This document shows positions 50,866-64,000 of a DNA stretch of 64,000 nt, piece by piece; position 1 is the stretch's first letter, and every line of letters begins with the position of its first letter. Origin of the DNA: Candidatus Kapaibacterium sp. Lineage in GTDB: Bacteria; Bacteroidota; Ignavibacteria; Kapaibacteriales; UBA2268. The DNA lies in assembly GCA_938031175.1 (NCBI GenBank), contig CALHGZ010000005.1, positions 124,001 to 188,000 on the forward strand, read 5' to 3'. Both the position numbers and the translations under genes were made by a program. The notes beneath the pieces are model-generated. The model searched no databases. It was not told the DNA's origin and worked only from the letters and a program-made list of their open reading frames with translations.

Positions 50866-53800
50866 ATGAAAAAGTCTATTATTTTGTCAATTCTGTTAAT
50901 AAGTTTTTTTCTACTTAGCTTACAGATATTTTCAACTCCTTACTCAGGACTTAAAATAATTGAATCCAATGATAAATTTTTAGAATTTGAATATTATCCG
51001 GAGCTTTTAAAACTTGAAGAAAGGATTACAATTGATAATCAGTTAACTATTTCCCCTGTAATAAAAGATGCACTCATTGAACCTAATGAAGCCGGTTCTC
51101 CAATGTGCCTTGTGGTTCCAATAAAAATTACAGTGCCAGGAGAAAATCAATATAAAATTTATTACAAAGAAGTTCTGGGAATTAATTCAATCAAAGGAAT
51201 TATTGCTCCTACAAAAGAAATTAAATTAAATAATGATGGAACTATACGAGAGTTATTTAGAGTTGATCCCCAAAAATATAATAAAGCACCTCAGGAATTT
51301 ATAGATATTAAGTACATGGGGATAGCTCGTTACAGGCATATTGCAGATGTTCTTTTGAGAGTTGCTCAATATGACCCCTTCACTAATTCAATTATAATAC
51401 CCAAAAAACTGATCGTTAAGATTCAATTTAATAATGATAATAACACAACATTGAGCAAAAAATTAAAAGATGATATAAAAACAACAATAAACCACGATCA
51501 AACCAGAAATTTTCTCGTGTTTCAGCATTCAAAATTATTAAAAAAAAGAATTGATGCAATTCAATCAAGGCAAAATCAAGTCTGGCTTAGAATTACTATA
51601 CCTAAAGAGGGACTATACAGAATTGATGCAAACAGACTAATCCAATTTGGATTTAATCCAGCAGTAGATAATCCTAATAGCATAAAAATCTTTGGCAATA
51701 GCGGTAAACATTTAAGCGAAAAAATAAGCGATGCATTAAAAAATCAAATGAATGAGCAGCCAATAATTGTTCGGATTAAATCTAATGGCGAGCTTGATTA
51801 TATACTATTTTATGGAAGTCCTGCTTATGGTTTTGAATTTCGAGACGGAGATTTTTATCATTACATTAATAGTTACTCAAATGATAACTATTATTTATTA
51901 ACTTGGGGTGGCGAGGCTGGTAAAAGGGCTTTCCCAAGACCTAATCCGACAGGTAATATTGTCAATAGTCCAGCAACCTATTTGCACCGATACTTTTTCG
52001 AAGAGGAAATAAATCACGGTTTTCCATATCCCGGCTCGGGTCGTATTTGGTATGGCAGAAGTATTTTCCCTTATGACGCAATCAACACATTGCACAATCT
52101 TGATATCAATGGGAATGTTGTCTATAGATTTGCAATTGCTCATAGAAATGATTTACCAGCAAAGTTTACAATCAAATTGTACAACACAACTATTAAACAA
52201 ATTGATGTACCATCTTCAGCAGGAGAGTACACAGGTTCAGTCAGGGCGATTTCAACTGCAACAATCTCTGCTGGGAATATAAAAGATTACAGAAGTTTAC
52301 TGAAATTTGAATATTCAAGCTCAAGTTTGTCCGGTACCCCATATTTAGACTATTATGAGATTCATTATCCCCGATATTTTGTCGCAATTGAAAATGAAAT
52401 ATCTTTTTTTACTGACCCTAATCTAAACGGGCTGACAGAATATGTAGTAAGCGAATTTAACGGTGGAGAAATTATAGGTTTCGATGTTACGGATTTAGTT
52501 AATCCAATATTGTTAAATAACGAATCAAATGTTAGTAGTCAATTTAAATTCAGAGTTGAGCATCAGAAAAATAAACCGCAAAAATATTATATATCATCTA
52601 AATATAACTTCCCAACACTTGAACGAATAGAATTTGGAAATTTACGGACTGAATTTGCCAATTGCGAAATGATAGTCATTACTCATCCCGACTTACTTGA
52701 ATCGGCAAACCGATTTAAAGAATATCGTGAAAAACAAAGTGGAATCAAAGTAGCAGTAATACGGACAGACCATATTTTCGCCGAGTTCTCTTGTGGTTTG
52801 CCCGATCCAACCGCAATTAGAGATTTTATTGCATTTGCTTTTGCAAACTGGGAGGTTAAGCCTTATTATATATTGCTATGGGGACGTGGACACTATGATT
52901 ATAAAAATATACAATACGATACACCTCAATATGTTCTGACTTATCAGTCAGCTGATGATACCATTATTTTAAGCGGTACAGCATCTTACACAACTGACGA
53001 CTACTTTGCCCGTATTGTAGGCGATGATAGAATAAACGATGTTTTAATAGGTAGAGTACCCGTTGATAATCCTCAGCGTGGAATTGATTTTGTGAATAAA
53101 ATCAATCATTATGAAAATAATTCCTCAACTGATTTATGGCGTACATTTATTACATTAGTTGCTGACGATAGCCCAACCAGCAAAGGTAATGATTATACTT
53201 TGCATACAAATCAATCCGAAAGGTTGTCTGCTAATAAAATTCCTACTTTTATGCAACAAAGAAAAATTTATTTGCCCGATTATCCGACTGAAAATGTCCC
53301 AGGTGGTAAACGTAAACCTACTTTAACACAAGATTTATTAAACATGATTAATACACGTGGCAATCTAATTTTAAATTGGATTGGGCACGGGAATCCACGT
53401 GTTTGGGCTCACGAAGAAATTTTAGATAGGGATATTACTATACCACAGATGAATAATTACAATAAATTATTCCTTCTTACCGCCGCAACTTGCGATTTTG
53501 CTAGATATGATATTCCTGATAAACTTAGCGGTGCTGAAGAGATGTTATTTAGTAATAAGGGTGGTGCAATTGGTATTTTTGCTGCAACCAGAATTGTGCT
53601 TGCTTACTCAAATGCAGTTATAAATGAAAAATTCTATGAGTCTCTTTTTACTTATGATACAAGTAGCGGTAAATATCCCACTATTGGTGAAGTTATGTAC
53701 AGAGTAAAATTGGTTCTTACGGATGATAATGATCAAAAATTCAATTTATTAGCCGACCCCTCAATGAATATACTTATTCCACCAGCTTTCATAAAAATTA

Positions 53801-54858
53801 CTCATATCAATGATGTTGAATTACCTTTAAAAAATGATACACTAAACATAAAAGGATTATCAGAAGTAAAAGTTGATGGAGTTATTCTAAAACCCGGAAC
53901 TAATGAAACAGATGATACATTCAATGGCACTGTCATTTTAACAATGCTTGATGGAGACCAGCCTACAATTATTGTTGATGTTGACGGTACCAAGCACAAT
54001 GTTTTACGTCACGGGGGTGCTTTAAATCAAAGCTCGTATAAAGTAAAAAATGGACGTTTCAGTGCTAATTTTATCATCCCAAAAGATATCAATTATAGTA
54101 AATACAATGGCAGATTATATGCTTATGCAGTATCAGATGATAAGCGTTTTGCCAAGGGTTCTGAAACTTCATTTCGGGTTGACGGGATAAAAAATTGGGA
54201 TAATCCCGACAGAACTCCACCTGAGATCAGGATTTATATTGATTCACGCAATTTTGAAAATTGCGATATTGTTAGCTCTGAGCCACTTCTAATTGTAGAA
54301 CTTTCAGACGATAGTGGAATAAACACAACCGGCAAAGGAATTGGCCATAAAATTGAGGCTTGGATTAATGATAGATTTGAATCAATAGATTTAACAAATG
54401 ATTTTATAACATCTATCGAAAATCCCAAAGCTGGCACTGTGGAAAAGATTCTCTACGGTCTCCAACCAGGTTTGCACAAAGTAAAAGTAAGGGCATGGGA
54501 TGTTTTCAATAACTTCAACATTGCCGAAGCATGCTTTGAAATTGTGGACAGAAGCAGTGTCAGTATCAGAGATGCATATGCTTATCCGAATCCAACTCAA
54601 AGTTCAACTAATATAAACTTCAAACACAATGCAAAACCTCCTTTTGATATAGAAATAAATATTTTTGATGTTTATGGCAAATTCCTTAAGAAAATTCAAA
54701 AAACAGGAATAGATCGATATATGGAAGAAATAAATTGGGATGGTACTGACGAAAATAATTTTCCACTTGCTGGTGGAGTTTACATATATCAAATAAAAAT
54801 TAATGCCGAAAAAGTTGGTACAGGTATTGCTTTTGGAAAAATAATTTTGGCAAAATAA
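50866..54858 (+). CDS. porU: type IX secretion system sortase PorU
   Basis: A 1330-residue C25 (gingipain-like) cysteine peptidase that cleaves the C-terminal signal of T9SS cargo at the cell surface and attaches the cargo to lipopolysaccharide. After a signal peptide (about 1-23) come beta domains, then the peptidase domain (about 615-970) with catalytic His841 (NWIGHGNPRVW) and Cys876 (LTAATCDFARYD) and RVPVDNPQRG. The C-terminal 85 residues (DAYAYPNPTQSSTNINF, then NFPLAGGVYIYQIKI) are an FlgD/Por-type beta-sandwich. It is followed 143 bp later by porV, its known partner. Confidence 0.93.
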   Translation: MKKSIILSILLISFFLLSLQIFSTPYSGLKIIESNDKFLEFEYYPELLKLEERITIDNQLTISPVIKDALIEPNEAGSPMCLVVPIKITVPGENQYKIYYKEVLGINSIKGIIAPTKEIKLNNDGTIRELFRVDPQKYNKAPQEFIDIKYMGIARYRHIADVLLRVAQYDPFTNSIIIPKKLIVKIQFNNDNNTTLSKKLKDDIKTTINHDQTRNFLVFQHSKLLKKRIDAIQSRQNQVWLRITIPKEGLYRIDANRLIQFGFNPAVDNPNSIKIFGNSGKHLSEKISDALKNQMNEQPIIVRIKSNGELDYILFYGSPAYGFEFRDGDFYHYINSYSNDNYYLLTWGGEAGKRAFPRPNPTGNIVNSPATYLHRYFFEEEINHGFPYPGSGRIWYGRSIFPYDAINTLHNLDINGNVVYRFAIAHRNDLPAKFTIKLYNTTIKQIDVPSSAGEYTGSVRAISTATISAGNIKDYRSLLKFEYSSSSLSGTPYLDYYEIHYPRYFVAIENEISFFTDPNLNGLTEYVVSEFNGGEIIGFDVTDLVNPILLNNESNVSSQFKFRVEHQKNKPQKYYISSKYNFPTLERIEFGNLRTEFANCEMIVITHPDLLESANRFKEYREKQSGIKVAVIRTDHIFAEFSCGLPDPTAIRDFIAFAFANWEVKPYYILLWGRGHYDYKNIQYDTPQYVLTYQSADDTIILSGTASYTTDDYFARIVGDDRINDVLIGRVPVDNPQRGIDFVNKINHYENNSSTDLWRTFITLVADDSPTSKGNDYTLHTNQSERLSANKIPTFMQQRKIYLPDYPTENVPGGKRKPTLTQDLLNMINTRGNLILNWIGHGNPRVWAHEEILDRDITIPQMNNYNKLFLLTAATCDFARYDIPDKLSGAEEMLFSNKGGAIGIFAATRIVLAYSNAVINEKFYESLFTYDTSSGKYPTIGEVMYRVKLVLTDDNDQKFNLLADPSMNILIPPAFIKITHINDVELPLKNDTLNIKGLSEVKVDGVILKPGTNETDDTFNGTVILTMLDGDQPTIIVDVDGTKHNVLRHGGALNQSSYKVKNGRFSANFIIPKDINYSKYNGRLYAYAVSDDKRFAKGSETSFRVDGIKNWDNPDRTPPEIRIYIDSRNFENCDIVSSEPLLIVELSDDSGINTTGKGIGHKIEAWINDRFESIDLTNDFITSIENPKAGTVEKILYGLQPGLHKVKVRAWDVFNNFNIAEACFEIVDRSSVSIRDAYAYPNPTQSSTNINFKHNAKPPFDIEINIFDVYGKFLKKIQKTGIDRYMEEINWDGTDENNFPLAGGVYIYQIKINAEKVGTGIAFGKIILAK

Positions 54859-55001
54859 ATTATTTATTTCAAAGATATAAATTAAAAAAATTATATAGTC
54901 GTTTAAATTAATATACAAAGAAAAATTATAGAGGAATAATATAGAAACAAGCAAATACCGCATTTTTAGGTTGATATTCATTAAACGGAGGAATTTATCT
55001 A

Positions 55002-56111
55002 ATGAAACATTATTTAAGAGAAGGAGTAATTATTCTTTTCTTTTCAATTTTTGCTGTGTCGATAAATGAAATTAAGGCACAAGGCGGTGGAGCAGCGGTT
55101 CCATTTTTGAGAATTTCCCCAGATGCACGTGCAAGTGGAATGGGTGAGGTTGGAACTGCAATTGCCGATGATATAAATGCAATATATTGGAATCCGGGCG
55201 GTTTGGCTTTCCACGAATTTGTCCCCGGTAAATTTGGTAGCGATCAAGAACCAATTCCTTACAGGCAGGTAGCACTTTCCTTCTCGCCTTGGCTTCCTCA
55301 ATTCAATGCGGATCTATTCTATAGTTATGGTACTATTGGTCAATATTTTGAAGATTTGGATGGTACTGTTGCGATAAATTTCATTTTTATGAATTTGGGT
55401 GAATTTACAAGAACAGCAGACGATGGCAGAAAGCTCGGAAAATTCATCTCGAATGAATTTTCACTCGGTTTATCCTATGGTACAATCATAGCACCCGATT
55501 TAGGTGTTGGATTTCAATTGCGGTATATCCAGTCAAATTTGGCTCCAGCTGCTCCCGGTCAGCAAGCTGCTGGTGTTGGTATAAGTGGAGCATTCGATCT
55601 TGGTGTGCTATGGAAACCACAAGAGCTTGATTTGTTCGGTCTCGATTTAGGTGGGTTATTCTCTCTTGGAATGAATTTACAAAATGTCGGACCAAAAATT
55701 ACATATAAGAGTGAATCCGATCCATTACCTACCACACTTCGGCTTGGAACTGCTTTCACTGTCATAAAAGATGAATTCAATGATTTAAAGCTTGCTATGG
55801 ATATATCAAAATTATTGGTAAAAAGGGATGAACTTGGTTCTGATCCATTACCTAAATCACTTGTAACTGGCTGGAAAAACCCCGGCGTCGAATTAGCTTT
55901 CGGAGCTGAGTACTGGTATGAGCAAATTGTTGCTTTGCGAGCTGGCTATTTTACAGAGCCTGCTCGTCTGGGAGACCGTAAATTTTGGAACTTCGGTGCT
56001 GGGATTAGATATGATATATTCAGGTTGGATTTCAGCTTCATTAATACAATCGAAGAAAACCATCCATTAGCTAATACTATGAGATTTTCATTGATGATTG
56101 ACTGGATGTAA
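55002..56111 (+). CDS. porV: type IX secretion outer-membrane protein PorV-like
   Basis: A 369-residue FadL-like beta-barrel that brings T9SS cargo to PorU. A signal peptide (about 1-26) is followed by the signature FLRISPDARASGMGEVGTAI and INAIYWNPGGLAF, the PorV/PorQ family opening. Later strands include VELAFGAEYWYEQIVALRAGYF and FWNFGAGIRYDIFRLDFSF. It could be a PorQ paralogue, but the length and position after porU favour PorV. A GGAGG site lies before the ATG, and a strong terminator follows. Confidence 0.9.
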   Translation: MKHYLREGVIILFFSIFAVSINEIKAQGGGAAVPFLRISPDARASGMGEVGTAIADDINAIYWNPGGLAFHEFVPGKFGSDQEPIPYRQVALSFSPWLPQFNADLFYSYGTIGQYFEDLDGTVAINFIFMNLGEFTRTADDGRKLGKFISNEFSLGLSYGTIIAPDLGVGFQLRYIQSNLAPAAPGQQAAGVGISGAFDLGVLWKPQELDLFGLDLGGLFSLGMNLQNVGPKITYKSESDPLPTTLRLGTAFTVIKDEFNDLKLAMDISKLLVKRDELGSDPLPKSLVTGWKNPGVELAFGAEYWYEQIVALRAGYFTEPARLGDRKFWNFGAGIRYDIFRLDFSFINTIEENHPLANTMRFSLMIDWM

Positions 56112-56140
56112 TAGACATCCTTTATATATAAATATTCTTC

Positions 56141-56172
56141 AACAAGGGGTTTCAACCCCTTGTTTGCTTTTT
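56141..56172 (+). terminator. rho-independent terminator after porV
   Basis: A perfect 9-bp stem AACAAGGGG/CCCCTTGTT with loop TTTCAA, followed by TGCTTTTT. It ends the porV transcript 30 bp after its stop. Confidence 0.88.
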
Positions 56173-56236
56173 AAAAGGGATTGATTGCTTAGAAACAGTA
56201 AAATTCATTTTTAAAAATTCAAGATTTATTTCAGAA

Positions 56237-56268
56237 TTACAAAAAATACCAAACATTTGGTATTTACT
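56237..56268 (+). promoter_or_regulatory. 32-bp palindromic operator-like element, copy 1
   Basis: The core is a perfect 10-bp inverted repeat, AAATACCAAA/TTTGGTATTT (56244-56265), with 2 bp between arms. It is extended by TTACAAA on the left and ACT on the right. 28 of 32 bases match copy 2 at 57014. It lies upstream of the response regulator gene, and its core ends exactly 20 bp before a TAGTTTTG box. This position is typical of an activator site just upstream of the core promoter. Confidence 0.75.
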
Positions 56269-56285
56269 TGCATCATTATTAGCTG

Positions 56286-56293
56286 TAGTTTTG
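56286..56293 (+). promoter_or_regulatory. TAnnTTTG promoter box upstream of the response regulator
   Basis: TAGTTTTG fits the Bacteroidota -7 consensus TAnnTTTG. It stands 20 bp after the palindrome core and 58 bp before the ATG at 56352. No good -33 TTG at 19-bp spacing is seen, consistent with activator dependence. Confidence 0.55.
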
Positions 56294-56351
56294 TTTCAAC
56301 AATTTTGACATAAAACTATTCAACTTATCTAAAATACTGGCAAAAAATTTT

Positions 56352-56801
56352 ATGTTTTCAGGAAAAATAAGAATATTAATAGCAGAGGATCATTCACTTA
56401 CGGCACATCTTATTGGAAAATTGCTCGCAAAGTATGAATTTATTGAAATTATTGGTATAGTAAGCGATGGATTTGCATTATTAGAAGAGCTCGATGCCAA
56501 AGAATGCGATATCGTTTTGCTCGATTTATCTATGCCTGAGCTTAATGGGATTGAGGCTATGAATATTATCCAAAAAAGGCATCCTTTTATTAAGGTACTG
56601 GTGCTTACTGCTCATTGCGACGGGAAATTTATCGAATCTGTCTTGGAACTCGGCGTTTCGGGTTATCTAACTAAAAAAGCTGATATTAATGAATTGATTA
56701 ATGCTATTAAGTTAGTTTATAACGGAGGTTTTTATCTCGATTCTCTTAGCTTGCACGCCTTATTGTATGATTACAAACCCAAGGAAAACGATTTAGTATG
56801 A
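56352..56801 (+). CDS. receiver-only response regulator (NarL-type receiver)
   Basis: A 149-residue CheY-like receiver with the acidic pocket (AEDHS, Asp13), phospho-acceptor Asp58 (LLDLSMPELNG), switch Thr86 (VLVLTAHCD) and the conserved Lys in GYLTKKAD. The sequence is NarL/FixJ-like, yet the protein stops about 25 residues after the receiver (LHALLYDYKPKENDLV), without the LuxR-type helix-turn-helix that such receivers normally carry. I found no HTH in the other frames just downstream. It may act by protein contact or be a truncated gene. No kinase is adjacent. Confidence 0.88.
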   Translation: MFSGKIRILIAEDHSLTAHLIGKLLAKYEFIEIIGIVSDGFALLEELDAKECDIVLLDLSMPELNGIEAMNIIQKRHPFIKVLVLTAHCDGKFIESVLELGVSGYLTKKADINELINAIKLVYNGGFYLDSLSLHALLYDYKPKENDLV

Positions 56802-56835
56802 TAATGAGCTATACATATTCTTCTTTTTGGTGTTG

Positions 56836-56854
56836 TTGGGGGCATACCCCCCAA
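56836..56854 (+). other. GC-rich hairpin downstream of the response regulator gene
   Basis: A perfect TTGGGGG/CCCCCAA stem with loop CATAC, conspicuous in an AT-rich region, 35 bp after the stop. No T-run follows on either strand, so it is not a standard terminator, but it could stop or protect the transcript. Confidence 0.45.
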
Positions 56855-57013
56855 AATTCATACATATTGAAATATTCTTATATTCTGTTTAAAACTAATT
56901 TTCAATTAAAACAAAGCATTGAAGAGCAAAAACAAGGGCTTTCAATTGATAGAAGACAGAATCTGTTCCGGGACGCGAAAAATTTAACCGAGTCTCATGC
57001 TATCTTTTTGTTT
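56855..57013. other. gene-poor stretch between the response regulator and the fibre operon
   Basis: No protein-coding gene is supported here. A 98-codon open frame starting at 56798 runs through it, but it overlaps the hairpin and the operator, has no ribosome-binding site and has no recognisable domain. It continues into the regulatory stretch described at 57014-57325. Confidence 0.6.
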
Positions 57014-57045
57014 TTACAAAAAATACCAAGTTCTTGGTATTTACT
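57014..57045 (+). promoter_or_regulatory. 32-bp palindromic operator-like element, copy 2
   Basis: A perfect inverted repeat AAATACCAAG/CTTGGTATTT (57021-57042) with 2 bp between arms, flanked by TTACAAA and ACT as in copy 1. Only the four central bases differ from copy 1. The core ends exactly 20 bp before a TAATTTTG box. It lies upstream of the secreted-protein/chaperone/usher genes. Confidence 0.75.
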
Positions 57046-57062
57046 CATATTATTTTTTCAAA

Positions 57063-57070
57063 TAATTTTG
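57063..57070 (+). promoter_or_regulatory. TAnnTTTG promoter box upstream of the fibre operon
   Basis: TAATTTTG fits the Bacteroidota -7 consensus. It is at the same 20-bp distance from the palindrome as in the response regulator promoter. Transcription from here would give a leader of about 250 nt before the ATG at 57326. Confidence 0.55.
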
Positions 57071-57134
57071 CATCTGAATTTCTCGTTCTTTTAAAAATGG
57101 CATGATTTAATGAAGGCAGACTTCTTAAAATAAT

Positions 57135-57221
57135 GGTAGCAAAACCTGTACATAAATAATGGTAGCTTTACCGAGAAAAAGGCTAGCATAAGCAGACAGA
57201 ATTAATCGTGGTAGCAGTACC
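57135..57221 (+). repeat. three copies of GGTAGCnnnACC in the leader region
   Basis: GGTAGCAAAACC (57135-57146), GGTAGCTTTACC (57161-57172) and GGTAGCAGTACC (57210-57221) share the pattern GGTAGCnnnACC. Copies 1 and 2 are also preceded by AAT. The spacing between starts is 26 and 49 bp. They lie after the predicted promoter and before the ATG, so they could be protein-binding sites on DNA or elements in the leader RNA. Confidence 0.5.
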
Positions 57222-57325
57222 AAAGTAATTTTAGGCTTGAGCCTAATGAAATTTATGGAATTTCGTGTTTAAGTATTTTTAAAAATTTTTAATGTTTTTT
57301 ATTAACAATTTTATGGAGTTTTATT

Positions 57326-58177
57326 ATGAAGAAGTTTTTTGCAATTATGCTTTTTGCAGTTTTGGCAACGACATTTACATTATCAGCACAATATCAGCCT
57401 GTTGGAACTGAACCATACGCGAATAATCCATTCTACACAAACATTGACAGCCGCGGTGATGTGTATTGGCTATTAGGAAATTGGATAAAAGATCGCGTTC
57501 ACGGACAACCCGGAAATCCACACAAAACCTTTGGCTATATTAATGTAGCACAAGGTGGTTCTGGAACTTGGACTTCTTTCCCATACATCCAATTCGATCA
57601 ATATGGTGATTTTATGTGGCAGAGCGGACAAATTAGACAGGTACCAAATCCAAAAACTCAATTCGATTTGATTGAAGATGGTTGCGAATGGTATGACTAT
57701 CCAGAATATGTCGGTTGCACCGAATATTTCTACTTATTTGTTTATGAACCACTTTGCATCACTTGTGTATGCCTTGATTATGCTTGCCTTGGTATTTTCA
57801 CAATTCCTTCATATCATACTTTATGGAATGGAGAAGGCAATCCGTTCCTTGGTGCCAGAGCTTATTCTTGCACCTGGTTGCTTCGTGGACAAAAGGACTG
57901 GTATGTTGTTCTTAGCGGCGAGATTCTCTATGTTCAGGGTACCGGTGTAGTAATTGATTGGAAATGGTATGGTCAGCCAACTGCTCTAAACCTTGGTTTT
58001 GGCGCTGGTGCTAACACATTCCAGGAAGAAAATGACAACTGGCACAAACTAATCCAACTTGCAAATGATGGTTGGTACTATGTTGGTTTAGTAGCCAAGA
58101 GTGTATCAGTAGCAACCAATGCCAGCAGTGGTGTACATGCTTGGGAAGCTACTTTATCAGGATTTTACTACTTCTAA
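57326..58177 (+). CDS. secreted Trp/Cys-rich protein of unknown family, candidate fibre subunit
   Basis: A 283-residue exported protein. The signal peptide (about 1-21) ends in LSAQ. The mature part has 13 Trp and 7 Cys, five of the Cys close together (about 130-157: GCEWYDYPEYVGC, LCITCVCLDYAC), and many Gly/Tyr. The pattern looks beta-rich. I do not recognise a family, and no T9SS C-terminal domain is seen. Codon use appears less AT-biased than in neighbouring genes, suggesting high expression. It is first in a run with another secreted protein, a pilus-type chaperone and an usher-like protein, so it may be the major surface subunit (inference). Confidence 0.7.
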   Translation: MKKFFAIMLFAVLATTFTLSAQYQPVGTEPYANNPFYTNIDSRGDVYWLLGNWIKDRVHGQPGNPHKTFGYINVAQGGSGTWTSFPYIQFDQYGDFMWQSGQIRQVPNPKTQFDLIEDGCEWYDYPEYVGCTEYFYLFVYEPLCITCVCLDYACLGIFTIPSYHTLWNGEGNPFLGARAYSCTWLLRGQKDWYVVLSGEILYVQGTGVVIDWKWYGQPTALNLGFGAGANTFQEENDNWHKLIQLANDGWYYVGLVAKSVSVATNASSGVHAWEATLSGFYYF

Positions 58178-58192
58178 GCTTAAAAAACGTGC

Positions 58193-58218
58193 GGGGCAGT
58201 TTGAAAAAAAACTGCTCC
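58193..58218 (+). terminator. hairpin between the two secreted-protein genes (possible attenuator)
   Basis: A 9-bp stem GGGGCAGTT/AACTGCTCC with one G-T pair and an 8-nt A-rich loop starts 16 bp after the stop. There is no T-run, so it may be a partial terminator or an RNA-stabilising hairpin that raises expression of the first gene over the later ones. Confidence 0.5.
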
Positions 58219-58249
58219 GTATCGTATAATTAAATTACAGGAGACAAAA

Positions 58250-58921
58250 ATGATGTTCATAAATAAAATAATAAACTTAAAGATAATAAGCTTAATAGTT
58301 GTTGCATTACTAAGTGTCTTATACCTTGAAGCACAAAAAAATCCCGGATTGCTTTATCCAGATGCGGTTCCAGCAACAATGAATTCTGTGGAACTATCGA
58401 GTTTTAATGGAATGTCAGATAAAAGAATAGAAAAATTTATGAACATTATTCCAGAATGCGATGAACCACCGAACTACAATGTATATTGCTTTGCTCCATA
58501 TAGTCAGTGTTTAGGAATATTTAATCAAAGTGGACTAAGAAATTACAGCTACCAAAATTTTTATATGGTGGTTGATATTGTTTTCGATAAAAAACCGAAT
58601 AAAATTAAATTAAATGGAACCGTAGATATAACAGTTGATGCGGGGCAAAATCCATTACATGTATATTTTCAGGACGTAATCTGGGAGTATGAGGGTGGAT
58701 TCAATAGCTGGCAGTTGATAAGTCAGACCGGCTTGGGTTTTTCCAACAAGTCTTTTCAGGCAAAGTCAAGATGGAACGGACCAAATAAGGAATTTTATAT
58801 TCGTTTAAGATTTGCCCCCAAAAACATATTCATTGGCAATTTTAATAGTCTTGGTGGAATACCATCAGGGAAATATGGATTTGAATTGCAACCGAGATTC
58901 ACTTTTATTAATTTGATATAG
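58250..58921 (+). CDS. secreted protein of unknown family, candidate fibre subunit
   Basis: A 223-residue exported protein with a long signal peptide (about 1-29, ending LEAQ). The mature part has a beta-strand pattern (FYMVVDIVFDKKPNKIKL, VDITVDAGQNPLHVYFQ, FYIRLRFAPKN) and ends IPSGKYGFELQPRFTFI, reminiscent of the 'P-x-G-x-Y' final strands of pilin-like domains. I recognise no family. It lies between the Trp/Cys-rich protein and the chaperone gene, with a GGAG site before the ATG. A clear terminator follows. Confidence 0.65.
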   Translation: MMFINKIINLKIISLIVVALLSVLYLEAQKNPGLLYPDAVPATMNSVELSSFNGMSDKRIEKFMNIIPECDEPPNYNVYCFAPYSQCLGIFNQSGLRNYSYQNFYMVVDIVFDKKPNKIKLNGTVDITVDAGQNPLHVYFQDVIWEYEGGFNSWQLISQTGLGFSNKSFQAKSRWNGPNKEFYIRLRFAPKNIFIGNFNSLGGIPSGKYGFELQPRFTFINLI

Positions 58922-58934
58922 TGGTTTAAATTAG

Positions 58935-58960
58935 TCCTTGATAATTCAAGGATTTTTTTT
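58935..58960 (+). terminator. rho-independent terminator
   Basis: A perfect 7-bp stem TCCTTGA/TCAAGGA with a TAAT loop, followed by eight T (58953-58960). It lies between the second secreted-protein gene and the chaperone gene, so the chaperone-usher part is either read through or has its own promoter. Confidence 0.87.
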
Positions 58961-59016
58961 AAAGCTAATAATTCAGTAAATTTATTGCGAAAGAAAATAC
59001 ATAAGGAAAGGAACTG

Positions 59017-59865
59017 ATGAAAATGAAGCTAATAAGAAATAAGATCTTACTACTGGCAGGTTTAATGATAGTATTCAATTTTTCGCTTAGATCTCAGATT
59101 GCTTTATTACCCCCGGTAGTTTACATTGACCCTGCTTCAAATTCAGGTTCCACAGTATTACAAAATCAGACAAATGCTCCTAAAGAAGTTCACGTTGATT
59201 TTCAATATGGCTTTATATCTTATGACAAAGATGGAGAAGCCTATCTTGATACCACAGATATGAGATTTCAGGATTATAACTTACAGCCATATATCAAAGT
59301 ATTTCCCAAGAAGGTATTAATTCCGGCTTATGGTCAACAGACTGTAAGATTTTTTATAAATACTGGAGGTCGCCAGTTAAAGGATGGTACTTACTGGGTA
59401 AGAGTCAATGTACAATCGCTTGATACAAAAACACAGATTGATTCATTAAAGGGTAAGACAGGTGCTGTTCAGGTAGATTTCAGATTGAAAGTAAAAACTA
59501 ATTCAATAGTAGTTTATCCTAAAGGGAATGTAACGACAGGTTTAAAAGTTTTAAATCATGAATTTAAATTGAACGATGAAACTATTGATTTATGGGTGGA
59601 ATACGAGAAAACAGGTAATTCACCATTTTGGGGTATGGTTGATCTTGAAGTAAAAGATGAAAAGGGAAATATAATTTCGGCTGAAAAAATTCCAACACAA
59701 ATCTATCATAGCGGAAAAATAAAATATAAGTTTTATAGAGATTACTTTAGAAGAGGCAAATATACATTCAATTTCACAGTAACGGGTGAACGAAGTGAAA
59801 TACCTGAGAATTTCAAAATAAAATTTTCACCAATTACACGTGAATTTGTATATAATATGCCATAG
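59017..59865 (+). CDS. PapD-like periplasmic pilus chaperone
   Basis: A 282-residue exported protein with a signal peptide (about 1-26). The two Ig-like domains of fimbrial chaperones are suggested by VVYIDPASNSGSTVLQNQT followed by APKEVHVDFQYG, YIKVFPKKVLIPAYGQQTVRF (the conserved 'P-x-x-V-x-L-x-P-G-Q-x-Q-x-V-R' block), DGTYWVRVNVQS (final strand region), and a second domain with NSIVVYPKGN and FWGMVDLEVKDEKGN. The Arg8 of PapD is not evident. It should hold subunits in the periplasm for the adjacent usher. Longer than PapD (about 240). Confidence 0.8.
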   Translation: MKMKLIRNKILLLAGLMIVFNFSLRSQIALLPPVVYIDPASNSGSTVLQNQTNAPKEVHVDFQYGFISYDKDGEAYLDTTDMRFQDYNLQPYIKVFPKKVLIPAYGQQTVRFFINTGGRQLKDGTYWVRVNVQSLDTKTQIDSLKGKTGAVQVDFRLKVKTNSIVVYPKGNVTTGLKVLNHEFKLNDETIDLWVEYEKTGNSPFWGMVDLEVKDEKGNIISAEKIPTQIYHSGKIKYKFYRDYFRRGKYTFNFTVTGERSEIPENFKIKFSPITREFVYNMP

Positions 59866-59973
59866 ACCGCACTATTGATAGTATTTTCATCCGAAATTAT
59901 ACTTCTTCAAAATAGAAACGAGAATATCAATTAAATCTAAGTGAAATAACATTTTTAATTTAGCCAGAGAAAA

Positions 59974-62900
59974 TTGAGATTAAGTAAAGTAAATAGTAAA
60001 TCATTAATTGGCAGAATAGTAATAATATTTATTTTTCTATTAGTTCAAATAAACAATTCCAGCGGATTTACAAGTAGGTACAAACTTCCCGACGATGCAT
60101 TCGAAGGTATTTTCCAGTTTCAGTATAAAAAATTAATCAATACTATGGTTATGGGAGCAGTATATAATGATTCAATTTATGTACCGATGAAGGAAATCTT
60201 TTCGCGTTTATTGATTTATTATGAGTTTGATCATGAGAATCAGGTAATGACAGGTTACTTCAAGAAAGAAACAAATACCTTTCGATTTGATTTTAATAAT
60301 TTAAAAGTTAAGTATTTAGACAAGGAATTTACAATAACTGAGAATGAATTTTTAAGAAACGATCTGGAGATATTTGTACTCCCCTCATTTCTTGCCAGAA
60401 CAATAGATTTGAGACTTATTGCAGATTATTCTCAACTTGCCATTTATGTGATTGAAAATACAAGAGCAGGTATGGTAAATGATGAGGATTTATTGCCATT
60501 AATGCAAAAATATAATCGTAGCAGATTACACGACAGATTAAAAGAACAAATTGCAAATGAGTTTAATTTCCCGCTTTTGTATCCACGCAATTATAGCTTT
60601 TTAAATGGCGGTTTGATGGATTACAGTCTGAATTTTTTAAAGAATAAACAAAGCGAATTTCTCTCTTGGGGTACAAATTTAGGTATAGAATTATTAGGTG
60701 GAGATTTAAATTTAAATTCATTCGGATTTTTCAATAATGGTTTTAATTATCAAAATTTTATTCACTGGCGTTTTGGACTGGCAAAAAACCCATATTTGAC
60801 ACAATTCAGAGCTGGGTATATCAACACAGTAACAAATAAATTGTCCTTTCTTCCGAGTCAGGTTGTTTTAGGTGGAATGTTAACGAATGATCCTGTACAA
60901 TTTGATGCTGATTTTGTAAATTATATTTTAGAAGAAGAAATGCCATTAGGTTGGCAGGTGGAACTATATGTAAATCATCAGTTGAGGGAATACCAGAACA
61001 CAACAGCGGGTAAATATCGCTTTGAAGTGCCGTTATATTATGGTAGAACAGAGATTGAGCTGAAATTTTATGGTCCCAAAGGTGAAAAATATTCAAAAAG
61101 GAAAAACTTAGACATTCCATATTTAATGCTAAAACCGGGTGAATTAAGTTATGCAATAGGAGGAGGCTGGGAAAAATTCGAAAGCATTTACAGTCCAAAA
61201 ATTGGTGAAGCAAAATTTGGACTTGGCATAACTCGATGGCTAAGCTGGTATAACTGGGCAAGTTATTATCAACTTAATAATAAGCCCTACTTTTTATCAA
61301 AGCTTGCAATAAATGCCTTTGACAATACATTTTTTGCAATTGAGGTCAATCCAGAGCGTTACTTTGGAATAATTACCTACCAGAACTTTGATGAATGGGG
61401 TTCATATTTTTTCCAATATATGAATTTTAATCTTCTAAACCGCGATCCTAATAATCCACAGGTAGCAATGTATAACATGAATGCCAGCTTGCCTGAATTT
61501 AATGAAATTTTCCCTATACGTACAACTATAGCTTATAGCAGACGCCAGTTTACGATGGGGGCAATTAATATATTTACAGGCAGAACAAGCTTTAATATAG
61601 ATGAATTTAGATTTTCGGCTAACTATAATTTGTCATTCAGGGATTTCAACACATTTAATACAATTGGCAATGTAGTGCAAAGTGTTGCACCAGTACTCAC
61701 CTGGGTATGGCGTGAAAAACCATCATTTTTGGATTTTTTGGAAACGACAACTTTTTCATTTGGTACAAACTATCATATTACAAATGATCAGTTTTTATCA
61801 GTATCTGCAGGATTTACACAACGGATTGCACAACGAATCAATTTAATAGGTACAATGACACGCGACCTTCAAATGAAAATTAATAGATATAATCTTTCTT
61901 TAATGATGAACTTTGATGAACTAATTAGTCAAAGCACATTAAATGTATTAAATAATGATTATGTAATTTCGCAGGGACTTTCTGGTGGTGTGGGTTATGA
62001 TGCATTTAATCAGGAACTGTTCATCAATAGCAGAATGTCGGGCTTACAAGTTGGCACAAGCTCAGCAATGCTAAGATTTTTCCTCGATGACAACGCAAAT
62101 GGAATATTTGACGAAGGTGAACAGTTAGTACCGAACGTAAATGCAAAGATATTGCAGGGCGGCAGACGCTTACACGATAAGGAAAGTGGTTTGTCAAGAT
62201 ACGTTGGATTACAACAATATGCAGAATATAATGTAGTTATAGATGCTGAATCATTTCCAAATCCACTGTGGGTAGCTTATACTCCAACATTTACATTTGT
62301 AACGGACCCAAACTCCACTAAAATCATTGATGTGCCATGCTATTCGACTGGTGTAATTGAAGGACAAGTTACACGTAATGATGGAATAGAAAGTGTGCCA
62401 CAAGCAGGTGTAAAAATACATATATTAAGAACCGATAGCACTTTTGTTGACGTTTTACCTGTCTATTCCGATGGTACTTATTATAAGGCTGGAATACCTC
62501 CGGGTGATTATTTAGCTTGGGTAGATTCGGCTCAGGTAGCTATATTAAATGTAAAATCAGTTCCTGAATTATTGACATTTACTATCGGAAAGACGACTTA
62601 TGGGGACTTTGTTGATGGATTAAATTTTGAGTTATATACCCAAGAAGCATACTTAGCTAAAGCAAAAAATGGAAGTAAAAAGACTGATTTGGATAATGGA
62701 TTGAGAAAGCAATCTGATGAGGAAGAAACTAAAGTATCGACAACAGAAGAAGTTAAAGAAATTGAAACTGCAACAACTACAAAAGAAATAGAAACTGTAA
62801 CGAATACGGATGTAACTGTGGCTGAAGTTTCTAAACCTGTACCAAATATGCATAGCCGAATACAAATTATTCCAAACGAGACTAAGCTATTTACATATAG

Positions 62901-63210
62901 AAATCCGCGCGATATTGGTCTGACACCTCAAATAACTGAATATCTCGATGCAGTAATAGAATATATGAAGAATAACCCAAGAACTGAAATCAGTATAGTC
63001 GGTCATACTGATAATTTTGGTTCCCTTGATGAAACACAGAAAGTTTCTGAACAAAGAGCTGAAGCAGTTGTTAGCTATTTAATCAGTAAAGGTATAAACC
63101 GAAACAGAATACTGTCACGTGGTGAAGGAGCAAGAGCACCAATTGCATCAAATATTTCGGCAAGTGGAAGGCAGCAAAATAGGAGGATCGAAATAATAGT
63201 CATTGATTAA
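59974..63210 (+). CDS. usher-like outer-membrane protein fused to a C-terminal OmpA domain
   Basis: A 1078-residue protein. A signal segment (about 13-32) is followed by an N-terminal domain (about 40-170). A large beta-barrel (about 195-690) contains a usher plug-like insert at about 326-400 (GWQVELYVNHQLREYQNT, RTEIELKFYGPKGE). An Ig-like domain opens FFLDDNANGIFDEGE (about 700) and runs to about 870 with GVIEGQVTRNDG. A Thr/Glu-rich linker (about 880-945) leads to an OmpA domain (about 955-1078: ISIVGHTDN, VSEQRAEAVVSYL, NRRIEIIVID). The start is a TTG at 59974, needed to keep the signal peptide. Usher activity is inferred from domain pattern and the chaperone next door. Confidence 0.78.
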   Translation: MRLSKVNSKSLIGRIVIIFIFLLVQINNSSGFTSRYKLPDDAFEGIFQFQYKKLINTMVMGAVYNDSIYVPMKEIFSRLLIYYEFDHENQVMTGYFKKETNTFRFDFNNLKVKYLDKEFTITENEFLRNDLEIFVLPSFLARTIDLRLIADYSQLAIYVIENTRAGMVNDEDLLPLMQKYNRSRLHDRLKEQIANEFNFPLLYPRNYSFLNGGLMDYSLNFLKNKQSEFLSWGTNLGIELLGGDLNLNSFGFFNNGFNYQNFIHWRFGLAKNPYLTQFRAGYINTVTNKLSFLPSQVVLGGMLTNDPVQFDADFVNYILEEEMPLGWQVELYVNHQLREYQNTTAGKYRFEVPLYYGRTEIELKFYGPKGEKYSKRKNLDIPYLMLKPGELSYAIGGGWEKFESIYSPKIGEAKFGLGITRWLSWYNWASYYQLNNKPYFLSKLAINAFDNTFFAIEVNPERYFGIITYQNFDEWGSYFFQYMNFNLLNRDPNNPQVAMYNMNASLPEFNEIFPIRTTIAYSRRQFTMGAINIFTGRTSFNIDEFRFSANYNLSFRDFNTFNTIGNVVQSVAPVLTWVWREKPSFLDFLETTTFSFGTNYHITNDQFLSVSAGFTQRIAQRINLIGTMTRDLQMKINRYNLSLMMNFDELISQSTLNVLNNDYVISQGLSGGVGYDAFNQELFINSRMSGLQVGTSSAMLRFFLDDNANGIFDEGEQLVPNVNAKILQGGRRLHDKESGLSRYVGLQQYAEYNVVIDAESFPNPLWVAYTPTFTFVTDPNSTKIIDVPCYSTGVIEGQVTRNDGIESVPQAGVKIHILRTDSTFVDVLPVYSDGTYYKAGIPPGDYLAWVDSAQVAILNVKSVPELLTFTIGKTTYGDFVDGLNFELYTQEAYLAKAKNGSKKTDLDNGLRKQSDEEETKVSTTEEVKEIETATTTKEIETVTNTDVTVAEVSKPVPNMHSRIQIIPNETKLFTYRNPRDIGLTPQITEYLDAVIEYMKNNPRTEISIVGHTDNFGSLDETQKVSEQRAEAVVSYLISKGINRNRILSRGEGARAPIASNISASGRQQNRRIEIIVID

Positions 63211-63233
63211 AATGTAAAAAAAATTTTAATTTT

Positions 63234-63257
63234 AAACCGCCTTTATGGGCGGTTTTT
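63234..63257 (+). terminator. rho-independent terminator after the usher-like gene
   Basis: A perfect 8-bp stem AAACCGCC/GGCGGTTT with loop TTTATG and a T-run (63253-63257), 23 bp after the stop. It closes the chaperone-usher transcript. Confidence 0.9.
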
Positions 63258-63413
63258 GTATTTTAAATTTTTGTTTCCGATTTAAAAATAAAGATTTAAG
63301 AGAATTACAAACCAAACTTAACATAAATTTAACACTCTCTTTAAAGCTAATTCATACAATTCGGGCAAATTTGTAATATGTTATGTAAAACAAATACTAA
63401 ATTCAACAAAATT

Positions 63414-64000
63414 ATGAACATTATTATAAGATTTTCCACAATACTAATCTTGTTTTTATCCCCTTTTATTTTAATTGCGCAAAGCAGTAATAATGGTACC
63501 ATAACCGGTAAACTTGTTGACCAGGAGACTGGCGAAGCACTCAGAAGTGGAACAGTTCAAATTGTCGGAACTAAAAAAGGTGCTTATAGTGATGTTAAAG
63601 GTGAATTTAGAATAAGAGACATAGCTCCCGGAACATATACATTACGCATATCATATATAGGTTACAATTCTAAGGAATTAACAAATGTAGTAATAAATCC
63701 AGGTTCAACAACTAATTTAGGTATAATATTATTAGAATCATCAGTAAAAAAGACCCAAGAAGTAGTTATTGAAGCCCAAAGAACGAACGATAACGAAGCA
63801 GCAATTTTAGCAATTAGAAAAAATGCTATCCAGGTAAGTGATGGAATAAGTCAGGAAGAAATTAAACGATTACCTGATTCTGATGCTGGTCAATCACTCA
63901 AAAGAGTGTCAGGTGTAACATTATTAAACGATAAATTTGTATTTGTGCGTGGTGTAAGCGAACGTTACAGCAATACTTTATTAAATGGAACATCACTTGC
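63414..64000 (+). CDS. TonB-dependent receptor, N-terminal part (runs off the window)
   Basis: A reading frame open to the window end (195 codons). The signal peptide (about 1-22) ends LIAQ. A carboxypeptidase-regulatory-like domain follows (GTITGKLVDQETGEALRSGT, then YSDVKGEFRIRDIAPGTYTLRISYIGY). The TonB plug domain begins ISQEEIKRLPDSDAGQSLKRVSGV in two parts, with KFVFVRGVSERYSNTLLNG. Such receptors import siderophores, vitamins or glycans through the outer membrane with TonB energy. The substrate is unknown, and I saw no obvious TonB box in the visible part. An ATG at 63378 is in frame and would add 12 residues; I prefer 63414 because it starts the signal peptide directly. Confidence 0.9.
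   Translation, partial: MNIIIRFSTILILFLSPFILIAQSSNNGTITGKLVDQETGEALRSGTVQIVGTKKGAYSDVKGEFRIRDIAPGTYTLRISYIGYNSKELTNVVINPGSTTNLGIILLESSVKKTQEVVIEAQRTNDNEAAILAIRKNAIQVSDGISQEEIKRLPDSDAGQSLKRVSGVTLLNDKFVFVRGVSERYSNTLLNGTSL

Follow-up and report, generated by a model that had tools for sequence, protein, structure and literature searches.

A probable chaperone-usher locus with an OmpA-tailed usher in a Candidatus Kapaibacterium genome

Chaperone-usher systems are listed in one paper for Proteobacteria, with the archaic kind also in Cyanobacteria and Deinococcus-Thermus (PMC4654587), and a survey left the pathway out (PMC4793230). In the literature within reach we found neither chaperone-usher systems described from Bacteroidota nor any report of ushers that carry wall-binding tails, although most subscription journals and bioRxiv lay outside the search and absence is not proven. 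Here we describe a four-gene locus at positions 57326–63210 of a 64,000-nucleotide stretch of DNA, hereafter the window, from Candidatus Kapaibacterium sp. (Bacteroidota; Ignavibacteria; assembly GCA_938031175.1, contig CALHGZ010000005.1, positions 124,001 to 188,000). The locus is very probably a chaperone-usher assembly system of a lineage found in Bacteroidota and relatives, with its outer-membrane platform tied to the cell wall.

The locus is a plus-strand run of four open reading frames (ORFs) of 283, 223, 282 and 1078 amino acids (aa), separated by gaps of 72, 95 and 108 bases. All four products have N termini that, read by eye, resemble signal peptides, which bears out an initial annotation of four consecutive exported proteins.

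57326–58177, + strand: S1, a 283-aa exported orphan with seven cysteines, candidate fibre subunit or tip protein (from ORF and position)
58250–58921, + strand: S2, a 223-aa exported orphan, candidate fibre subunit (from ORF and a weak C-terminal subunit-profile score)
59017–59865, + strand: predicted PapD-like two-domain periplasmic chaperone, 282 aa (AlphaFold2, Foldseek and VIA, profile match)
59974–63210, + strand: predicted outer-membrane usher fused to an OmpA domain, 1078 aa, TTG start (model, Foldseek, profile match)

Like FimC–FimD and PapD–PapC, the locus combines, in adjacent genes, a PapD-like chaperone and an usher with a 24-strand barrel, a plug between strands 6 and 7 and C-terminal domains. 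Unlike FimD and PapC, the window usher continues into a 65-residue linker and an OmpA domain, reaching 1078 aa compared with 793–878 aa in nine Escherichia coli ushers; unlike FimC and PapD, the chaperone lacks the classical basic pair, and the phylum differs. Likeness to the archaic and alternative systems Csu, Ecp and Cfa lies in the chaperone, through its structural matches to EcpB and CsuC and a conserved strand-F arginine, but that arginine falls outside the EcpB column, homology of the subunits to CfaB and CsuE is not significant, and the SCPU family is almost absent from the subunit candidates. As in OmpA, PorE and TpgA, an OmpA-like domain ends an outer-membrane protein, here joined to an usher pore instead.

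Usher and chaperone of the window

The initial annotation had predicted an usher with a plug, and the model of the 1078-aa protein (54 sequences; predicted local distance difference test (pLDDT) 84.9, predicted template modelling score 0.66) has 24 barrel strands, counted by hand from its DSSP list, with a plug between strands 6 and 7. The parts of the protein are as follows.

60100–60453, + strand: N-terminal domain, aa 43–160, likely chaperone-docking (model strands; its end lines up with that of the E. coli usher N domain)
60574–62028, + strand: 24-strand barrel with plug insert, aa 201–685, strands at 210–676 (model secondary structure; VIA alignment to FimD 131–833)
60910–61116, + strand: plug, a six-strand insert between barrel strands 6 and 7, aa 313–381 (model; co-linear with the FimD region in the profile alignment)
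62056–62640, + strand: C-terminal beta domains, aa 695–889 (model; VIA alignment reaches FimD 833)
62671–62868, + strand: flexible linker, aa 900–965 (ten-residue pLDDT means of 30–47 over 901–960; low model confidence at 902–961)
62869–63207, + strand: OmpA-like domain, aa 966–1078 (Pfam OmpA, 62.3 bits, cut-off 27.2; residues 981–1070)

Foldseek ranks 1–19 for this model are all FimD or PapC (best E 6.8e-31), and VIA places residues 203–886 on FimD 131–833 (Z 20.7 over 615 residues, root-mean-square deviation (r.m.s.d.) 8.2), an alignment that identifies C-terminal domains of the CTD1/CTD2 type. Within aa 43–160, alignment to E. coli ushers covers only the end of the domain; in VIA, the best superpositions on FimD begin at 203–204. 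Compared as profiles, 74 ushers of the Fibrobacterota–Chlorobiota–Bacteroidota group (71 after the hhalign filter) match the nine E. coli K-12 ushers with a probability of 99.1% (E 1.4e-18) over 565 co-linear columns, plug included. Ten column-shuffled controls reached 0.1–0.2%, and seven unrelated proteins, FadL, PorV and a TonB-dependent receptor among them, reached 0.1–3.0%. On model and profile evidence, the protein is a true usher of the FimD/PapC kind, a type that assembles adhesive pili in Proteobacteria.

The 282-aa protein, initially annotated as PapD-like, was modelled by AlphaFold2 (58 sequences, pLDDT 91.7) as two PapD-like beta domains with the expected double immunoglobulin (Ig) fold. 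Foldseek lists EcpB first (E 1.6e-8), with CsuC, FimC, YadV and PapD also present, and VIA aligns the model with YadV (Z 13.1, 3.8 Å, 191 residues) and CsuC (Z 12.8, 4.2 Å, 179 residues). The chaperone family profile (68 rows) matches 12 E. coli K-12 chaperones with a probability of 94.6% (E 6.6e-8), mainly over domain 1, with ten column-shuffled controls at 0.1–0.4% and three unrelated proteins at 0.1–0.6%. A domain-1 proline is given as invariant across the chaperone superfamily in PMC4654587, and P97, which shares a column with EcpB P60, is present in all 68 family rows. The same paper places a carboxylate-binding arginine, Arg89, in strand F of domain 1 of archaic and alternative chaperones. 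Here the strand-F arginine R129 is kept in 66 of 68 rows; since it sits on the corresponding strand but two residues off the EcpB R89 column in the alignment, membership of the archaic/alternative clade is no more than possible. Judged by its predicted structure, the protein is a PapD-like, two-Ig chaperone of the usher pathway.

The same two-Ig architecture is found in the WxL-interacting protein (WxLIP), a Gram-positive protein with no known usher partner, and the chaperone could instead be a WxLIP-like scaffold whose likeness to PapD reflects shared Ig architecture only. WxLIP takes second place in the Foldseek list, that of Enterococcus faecium has a VIA Z score slightly above those of the chaperones (14.4, but at an r.m.s.d. 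of 7.2 Å), and weak Pfam WxLIP matches occur among 31 aligned chaperone relatives (8 for one domain, 2 for the other). We consider this scaffold reading very improbable, given that a chaperone gene lies upstream of the usher in all 62 related loci with enough upstream sequence, that profile homology links the family to E. coli chaperones, and that PapD_N is the commonest Pfam family among the 31 relatives (13 at E up to 0.1, best 2.5e-5).

Several results count against a chaperone-usher system, the first group of them concerning homology. Taken singly, E. coli ushers score unevenly (HtrE 95.6%, YraJ 93.1%, YehB 92.2%, YbgQ 83.7%, FimD 30.1%, YhcD 19.7%, ElfC 9.1%, SfmD 0.9%, EcpC 0.7%), and the 12 E. 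coli chaperones all stay at or below 33.3% against the family profile (best EcpB, 33.3%); the strong figures for both families hold for joint alignments, not for single E. coli proteins. Searches of PDB sequences by phmmer and hmmsearch with the usher family retrieved no solved usher, the best match being a biofilm-associated surface protein (E 0.0025), and those with the chaperone family did not retrieve the solved chaperones. The homology of both proteins thus rests on profile–profile and fold comparison. The classical carboxylate-binding pair Arg8/Lys112 has no basic equivalent in the window chaperone and six relatives in one alignment, which speaks against membership of the FimC/PapD clade.

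Pfam and NCBIfam scans of the single window proteins named neither an usher nor a chaperone; the window chaperone stayed below the PapD_N threshold (E 0.062), and Pfam Usher (PF00577) had no match in the source genome, window usher included. We do not count this silence as adverse, because relatives also match poorly, Usher being found at E 0.1 or better in 2 of 32 aligned ushers (best 3.2e-4) and PapD_N in the 13 of 31 chaperones given above.

Related loci and the candidate subunits

Usher-like matches occur in 67 of 296 genomes of the phylum, source genome included (42 of the 67 at E 1e-30 or better), and in 30 of 119 genomes of the class, with none in the four other genomes of the same family within the 296-genome sample. 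The source genome has a second locus, in which an usher with an OmpA domain (34% identical) accompanies a chaperone and three small exported ORFs of 151, 196 and 211 aa. A scan of genome contigs with a single usher as query found nothing. With the usher alignment as query, at least 80 loci in named genomes were found among the 86 matches listed, 78 of the 80 with an usher ORF longer than 500 aa; in the tree listing these loci fall in Balneolota, Bacteroidota, Ignavibacteriota, Chlorobiota, Rhodothermota and others. The chaperone-usher pathway is widespread in this further large group and nearly invisible to the standard Pfam usher model. Loci are cited below by L numbers.

The initial annotation had suggested looking for the gene order in related genomes, and the chaperone-usher order recurs across Bacteroidota-type genomes, Ignavibacteria included. 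Sixty-two of the loci extend 1200 bases or more upstream of the usher; all 62 contain a chaperone gene there, 60 of them within 350 bases. Where 3.5 kb or more precedes the chaperone (47 loci), the number of small ORFs (120–330 aa, counting stopped at four per locus) directly before it is three or four in 39 loci, at least one in 45 and zero in two. In a first set of 40 loci, BLAST with the window chaperone found the chaperone in 33. A contig end truncates two of the seven missed loci (L051, L065); the other five had an unmatched ORF of 274–301 aa in or near its place, four of which were added by hand to the chaperone alignment.

The ushers at L052:3893–8494 and L056:3904–8088 have about 565 residues ahead of the aligned core, and L052 has two chaperone-like genes. 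Usher contigs L120, L137 and L141 come from metagenome-assembled genomes named Thioalkalivibrio, Methanofastidiosia and Nitriliruptoraceae, and are probably mis-binned, because they cluster tightly with ushers of Bacteroidales/Bacteroidia.

From gene position we infer that S1 and S2 are the fibre subunits. Both are orphans, as the initial description of two unfamiliar secreted proteins implied: S1 has no Pfam match and only a 24-residue sub-threshold NCBIfam match over the signal peptide, and S2 has no family match in Pfam or NCBIfam. Across the 119 genomes of the class, S1 has a full match only in the source genome, and S2 has no relative in the other 118. We discount a partial match of S1 in L080 (41% over residues 218–281) as probable chance, since the secreted protein at that locus looks unrelated.

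A C-terminal subunit profile was built from 172 small upstream ORFs of named loci, 144 of which carry a G-x-aromatic/His C-terminal motif compared with 21 of 237 other ORFs; this motif presumably resembles that of Csu-type pilins. On this profile S2 ranks first among 81 ORFs of the window and the source genome's second locus. The second group of adverse results concerns these two proteins. The score of S2 is only weak (2.9 bits, reached by 13 of 500 shuffles), S1 scores −0.5 bits (210 of 500 shuffles are as good), and neither has a recognisable pilin signature. Their own G-x-aromatic/His endings are uninformative, because a quarter to a third of last-24-residue shuffles fit too (503 of 2000 for S1, 682 of 2000 for S2). 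DUF4402, found in 24 of 35 scanned small upstream ORFs (E up to 0.1, best 8.9e-31), is above cut-off nowhere in the source genome; the 35 were taken from 120 in the first locus set, with three from the source genome's second locus.

A single scanned subunit candidate from the Ignavibacteria locus L100, where the small ORFs are rich in cysteine as read by eye, had no Pfam match. From this and from the lack of a DUF4402 pass in the source genome, we consider that the clade with OmpA-tailed ushers may use divergent subunits. Searched against the PDB, the relatives' subunit profile reached CfaB at E 0.62 and CsuE at E 3.5, neither significant, and SCPU matched 1 of the 35 scanned ORFs (E 0.051).

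These orphans leave room for a genuine chaperone-usher machine in which S1 and S2 are accessory, tip or unrelated secreted proteins and the pilins come from the second locus of the source genome. Besides the missing pilin signatures, it is in favour of this arrangement that the subunit profile gives two of the three small exported ORFs of that locus the next-best scores behind S2 (2.6 and 2.2 bits). We nevertheless consider it rather unlikely, as S1 and S2 occupy the place that small subunit-like genes hold in most related loci (at least one in the 45 of 47 above) and the subunits of the OmpA-usher clade look divergent generally, L100 being the case in point.

Still less probable is a reading without polymerisation, in which one surface protein or coat passes through the usher-like barrel and the chaperone acts as a simple export factor. 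The candidate substrates are just two and dissimilar, and type IX secretion offers another route for surface proteins, with porU and porV just upstream, but the window usher has the plug and C-terminal domains of polymerising systems, and relatives have their multi-subunit operons.

Exchangeable tails and a motor-like cassette

The OmpA domain that the initial annotation placed at the end of the usher is clear in Pfam, and VIA aligns it with the OmpA domain of Acinetobacter baumannii at Z 17.3 (1.7 Å, 112 residues). It carries D1013 and R1028, which we take to be the Asp/Arg contacts of peptidoglycan stem peptides. From these sequence features, the domain would serve as a wall tether of the usher.

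The usher-OmpA layout stands for the window but needs widening, as OmpA is only one of several C-terminal modules on these ushers and the module is swapped among relatives. Tails were surveyed in 74 ushers, namely that of the window and 73 longer than 800 aa from named loci, excluding the second copy of the source genome; nine are cut by a contig end. The 65 complete ushers comprise 29 with SPOR (one with LysM too), 16 with a TPR-type tail, 15 with none and five with OmpA (window, L100, L101, L166 and L167). SPOR and LysM are wall-binding folds. Labels came from home-made profiles, which were seeded with the L130 tail and with ten Pfam-scanned tails (five SPOR and three OmpA above cut-off, two TPR at or close to cut-off). 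No case was left undecided, because every complete tailed usher fell into SPOR, OmpA or TPR-type. Pfam searches of 32 ushers assembled earlier (E up to 0.1) gave SPOR in 14, TPR_2 in seven and OmpA in two, both from the source genome. The usher at L111:3101–6535, in a record named Ignavibacteriales, has SPOR and LysM together in its tail.

A quick usher tree of 74 rows (the 73 surveyed ushers that remain after omission of one short row, plus the second copy of the source genome) needs two changes for OmpA, 13 for SPOR and seven for TPR, counts that are rough because several branches are long, the window's included. OmpA tails fall in two clades, one with the window, the second copy, L100 and L101 (Shimodaira–Hasegawa-like approximate likelihood ratio test 100) and the other with L166 and L167.

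The OmpA domain might alternatively be a dimerisation, partner-binding or relic module. Its wall binding is a prediction, and the 15 complete ushers that are tailless form the last adverse point, indicating that such systems do not as a rule require a wall tether. We think such a role improbable, since D1013 and R1028 are kept, since the domain recurs in both loci of the source genome and in L100, L101, L166 and L167, and since elsewhere the unrelated wall-binding folds SPOR and LysM occupy its place.

In the wall-tethered system that we favour, subunits, most likely S1 and S2, would leave the cytoplasm through Sec, and the PapD-like chaperone would lend a beta strand to hold them. The loaded chaperone would dock on the N-terminal domain of the usher, the plug would vacate the 24-strand pore, and donor-strand exchange at the C-terminal domains would join the subunits and push the fibre outward. 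Meanwhile the OmpA domain, on its linker of about 65 residues, would bind peptidoglycan stem peptides and hold the platform against pulling, drift and rotation. A study of Csu pili models secretion as requiring rotation of the usher or the pilus (PMC9452303). We would expect a wall tether to oppose rotation of this kind, and pulling. The swapped tails make platform anchoring a testable prediction. To our knowledge, what holds a pilus assembly platform in place has been little studied.

TPR-type ushers have companions of a different sort. Directly after them comes a gene with a FliG domain, then a MotA_ExbB protein and a MotB-like protein with OmpA (in L103 also SPOR), and a TPR-like protein belongs to the cassette at the closely examined loci L103, L107, L130 and L144. 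Pfam FliG_M, FliG_N and FliG_C are above cut-off in L103 and L107, and FliG_C only in L153; profile comparison gives the FliG-like protein a FliG probability of 97% (E 8.6e-11). A FliF–FliG fusion was considered for this protein and dropped (FliF probability 3%). Read by eye, the FliG-like protein has an exported N-terminal part in L103, L107, L130, L144, L153 and other TPR-type loci, and the FliG-like, MotA-like and MotB-like genes belong to a single run that includes the usher genes.

Where the downstream sequence spans 1500 bases or more (54 loci), all 15 TPR-type loci have a FliG-like gene and none of the 39 others does, although all three seeds of the TPR-tail profile come from FliG-bearing loci. 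Tail and gene switch together seven independent times, always in the same direction (sign test, p 0.016). The MotB-like profile alone matches in two SPOR loci. Of 11 genomes with cassette-bearing usher loci, eight probably have no flagella, because no FHIPEP (FlhA) match was found in them. Cassettes of FliG-like, MotA and MotB genes also occur free of ushers at L190 (3664–8692), L191 (5328–10315) and L192 (5184–10237), with exported proteins of about 360 aa and proteins of about 210 aa between FliG-like and MotA.

The link between cassette and usher is a genomic association, and motor coupling is putative. With more doubt than confidence, we suggest that an unrecognised chaperone-usher branch in Bacteroidota and relatives couples its usher mechanically to the envelope, either by wall-binding tails (OmpA, SPOR, LysM) or by a TPR-type tail with the FliG–MotA–MotB-like cassette, in which an ion-driven motor of flagellar type might turn or power the pilus platform in some lineages; the window would represent the wall-anchored form. 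The paired switch of TPR-type tail and cassette makes it possible to study whether certain pili are driven.

Transcription signals and neighbouring genes

Three further plus-strand features lie in or beside the locus.

56352–56801, + strand: response regulator with a receiver domain only (Pfam Response_reg, E 2.9e-25)
58933–58954, + strand: hairpin followed by a T-run, between the S2 and chaperone genes (pattern scan; RNA fold −12.6 kcal/mol, z −5.1)
63234–63255, + strand: terminator-like hairpin past the usher gene, closing the unit (pattern scan; −13.8 kcal/mol, z −4.1)

The pattern scan found eight terminator-like sites, with 3.4 expected (standard deviation 2.0), and Rfam at gathering scores gave no match in 54000–64000. 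The hairpin between S2 and the chaperone is a possible attenuator, which would yield more subunit than chaperone. Past the usher, the protein encoded next downstream resembles TonB-dependent receptors (Pfam CarbopepD_reg and Plug within the first 207 residues). Upstream of the locus, at 50866–56111, a porU-like sortase of the type IX secretion system (NCBIfam T9SS_sortase, 842 bits) adjoins porV.

The receiver-only response regulator possibly regulates the chaperone-usher locus. Receiver-like proteins, read by eye, also lie upstream of the subunit genes in L100 (501–980) and L111 (423–857), and in L165 and L167 receiver-domain-like proteins follow the usher, with a kinase-like ORF beside them.

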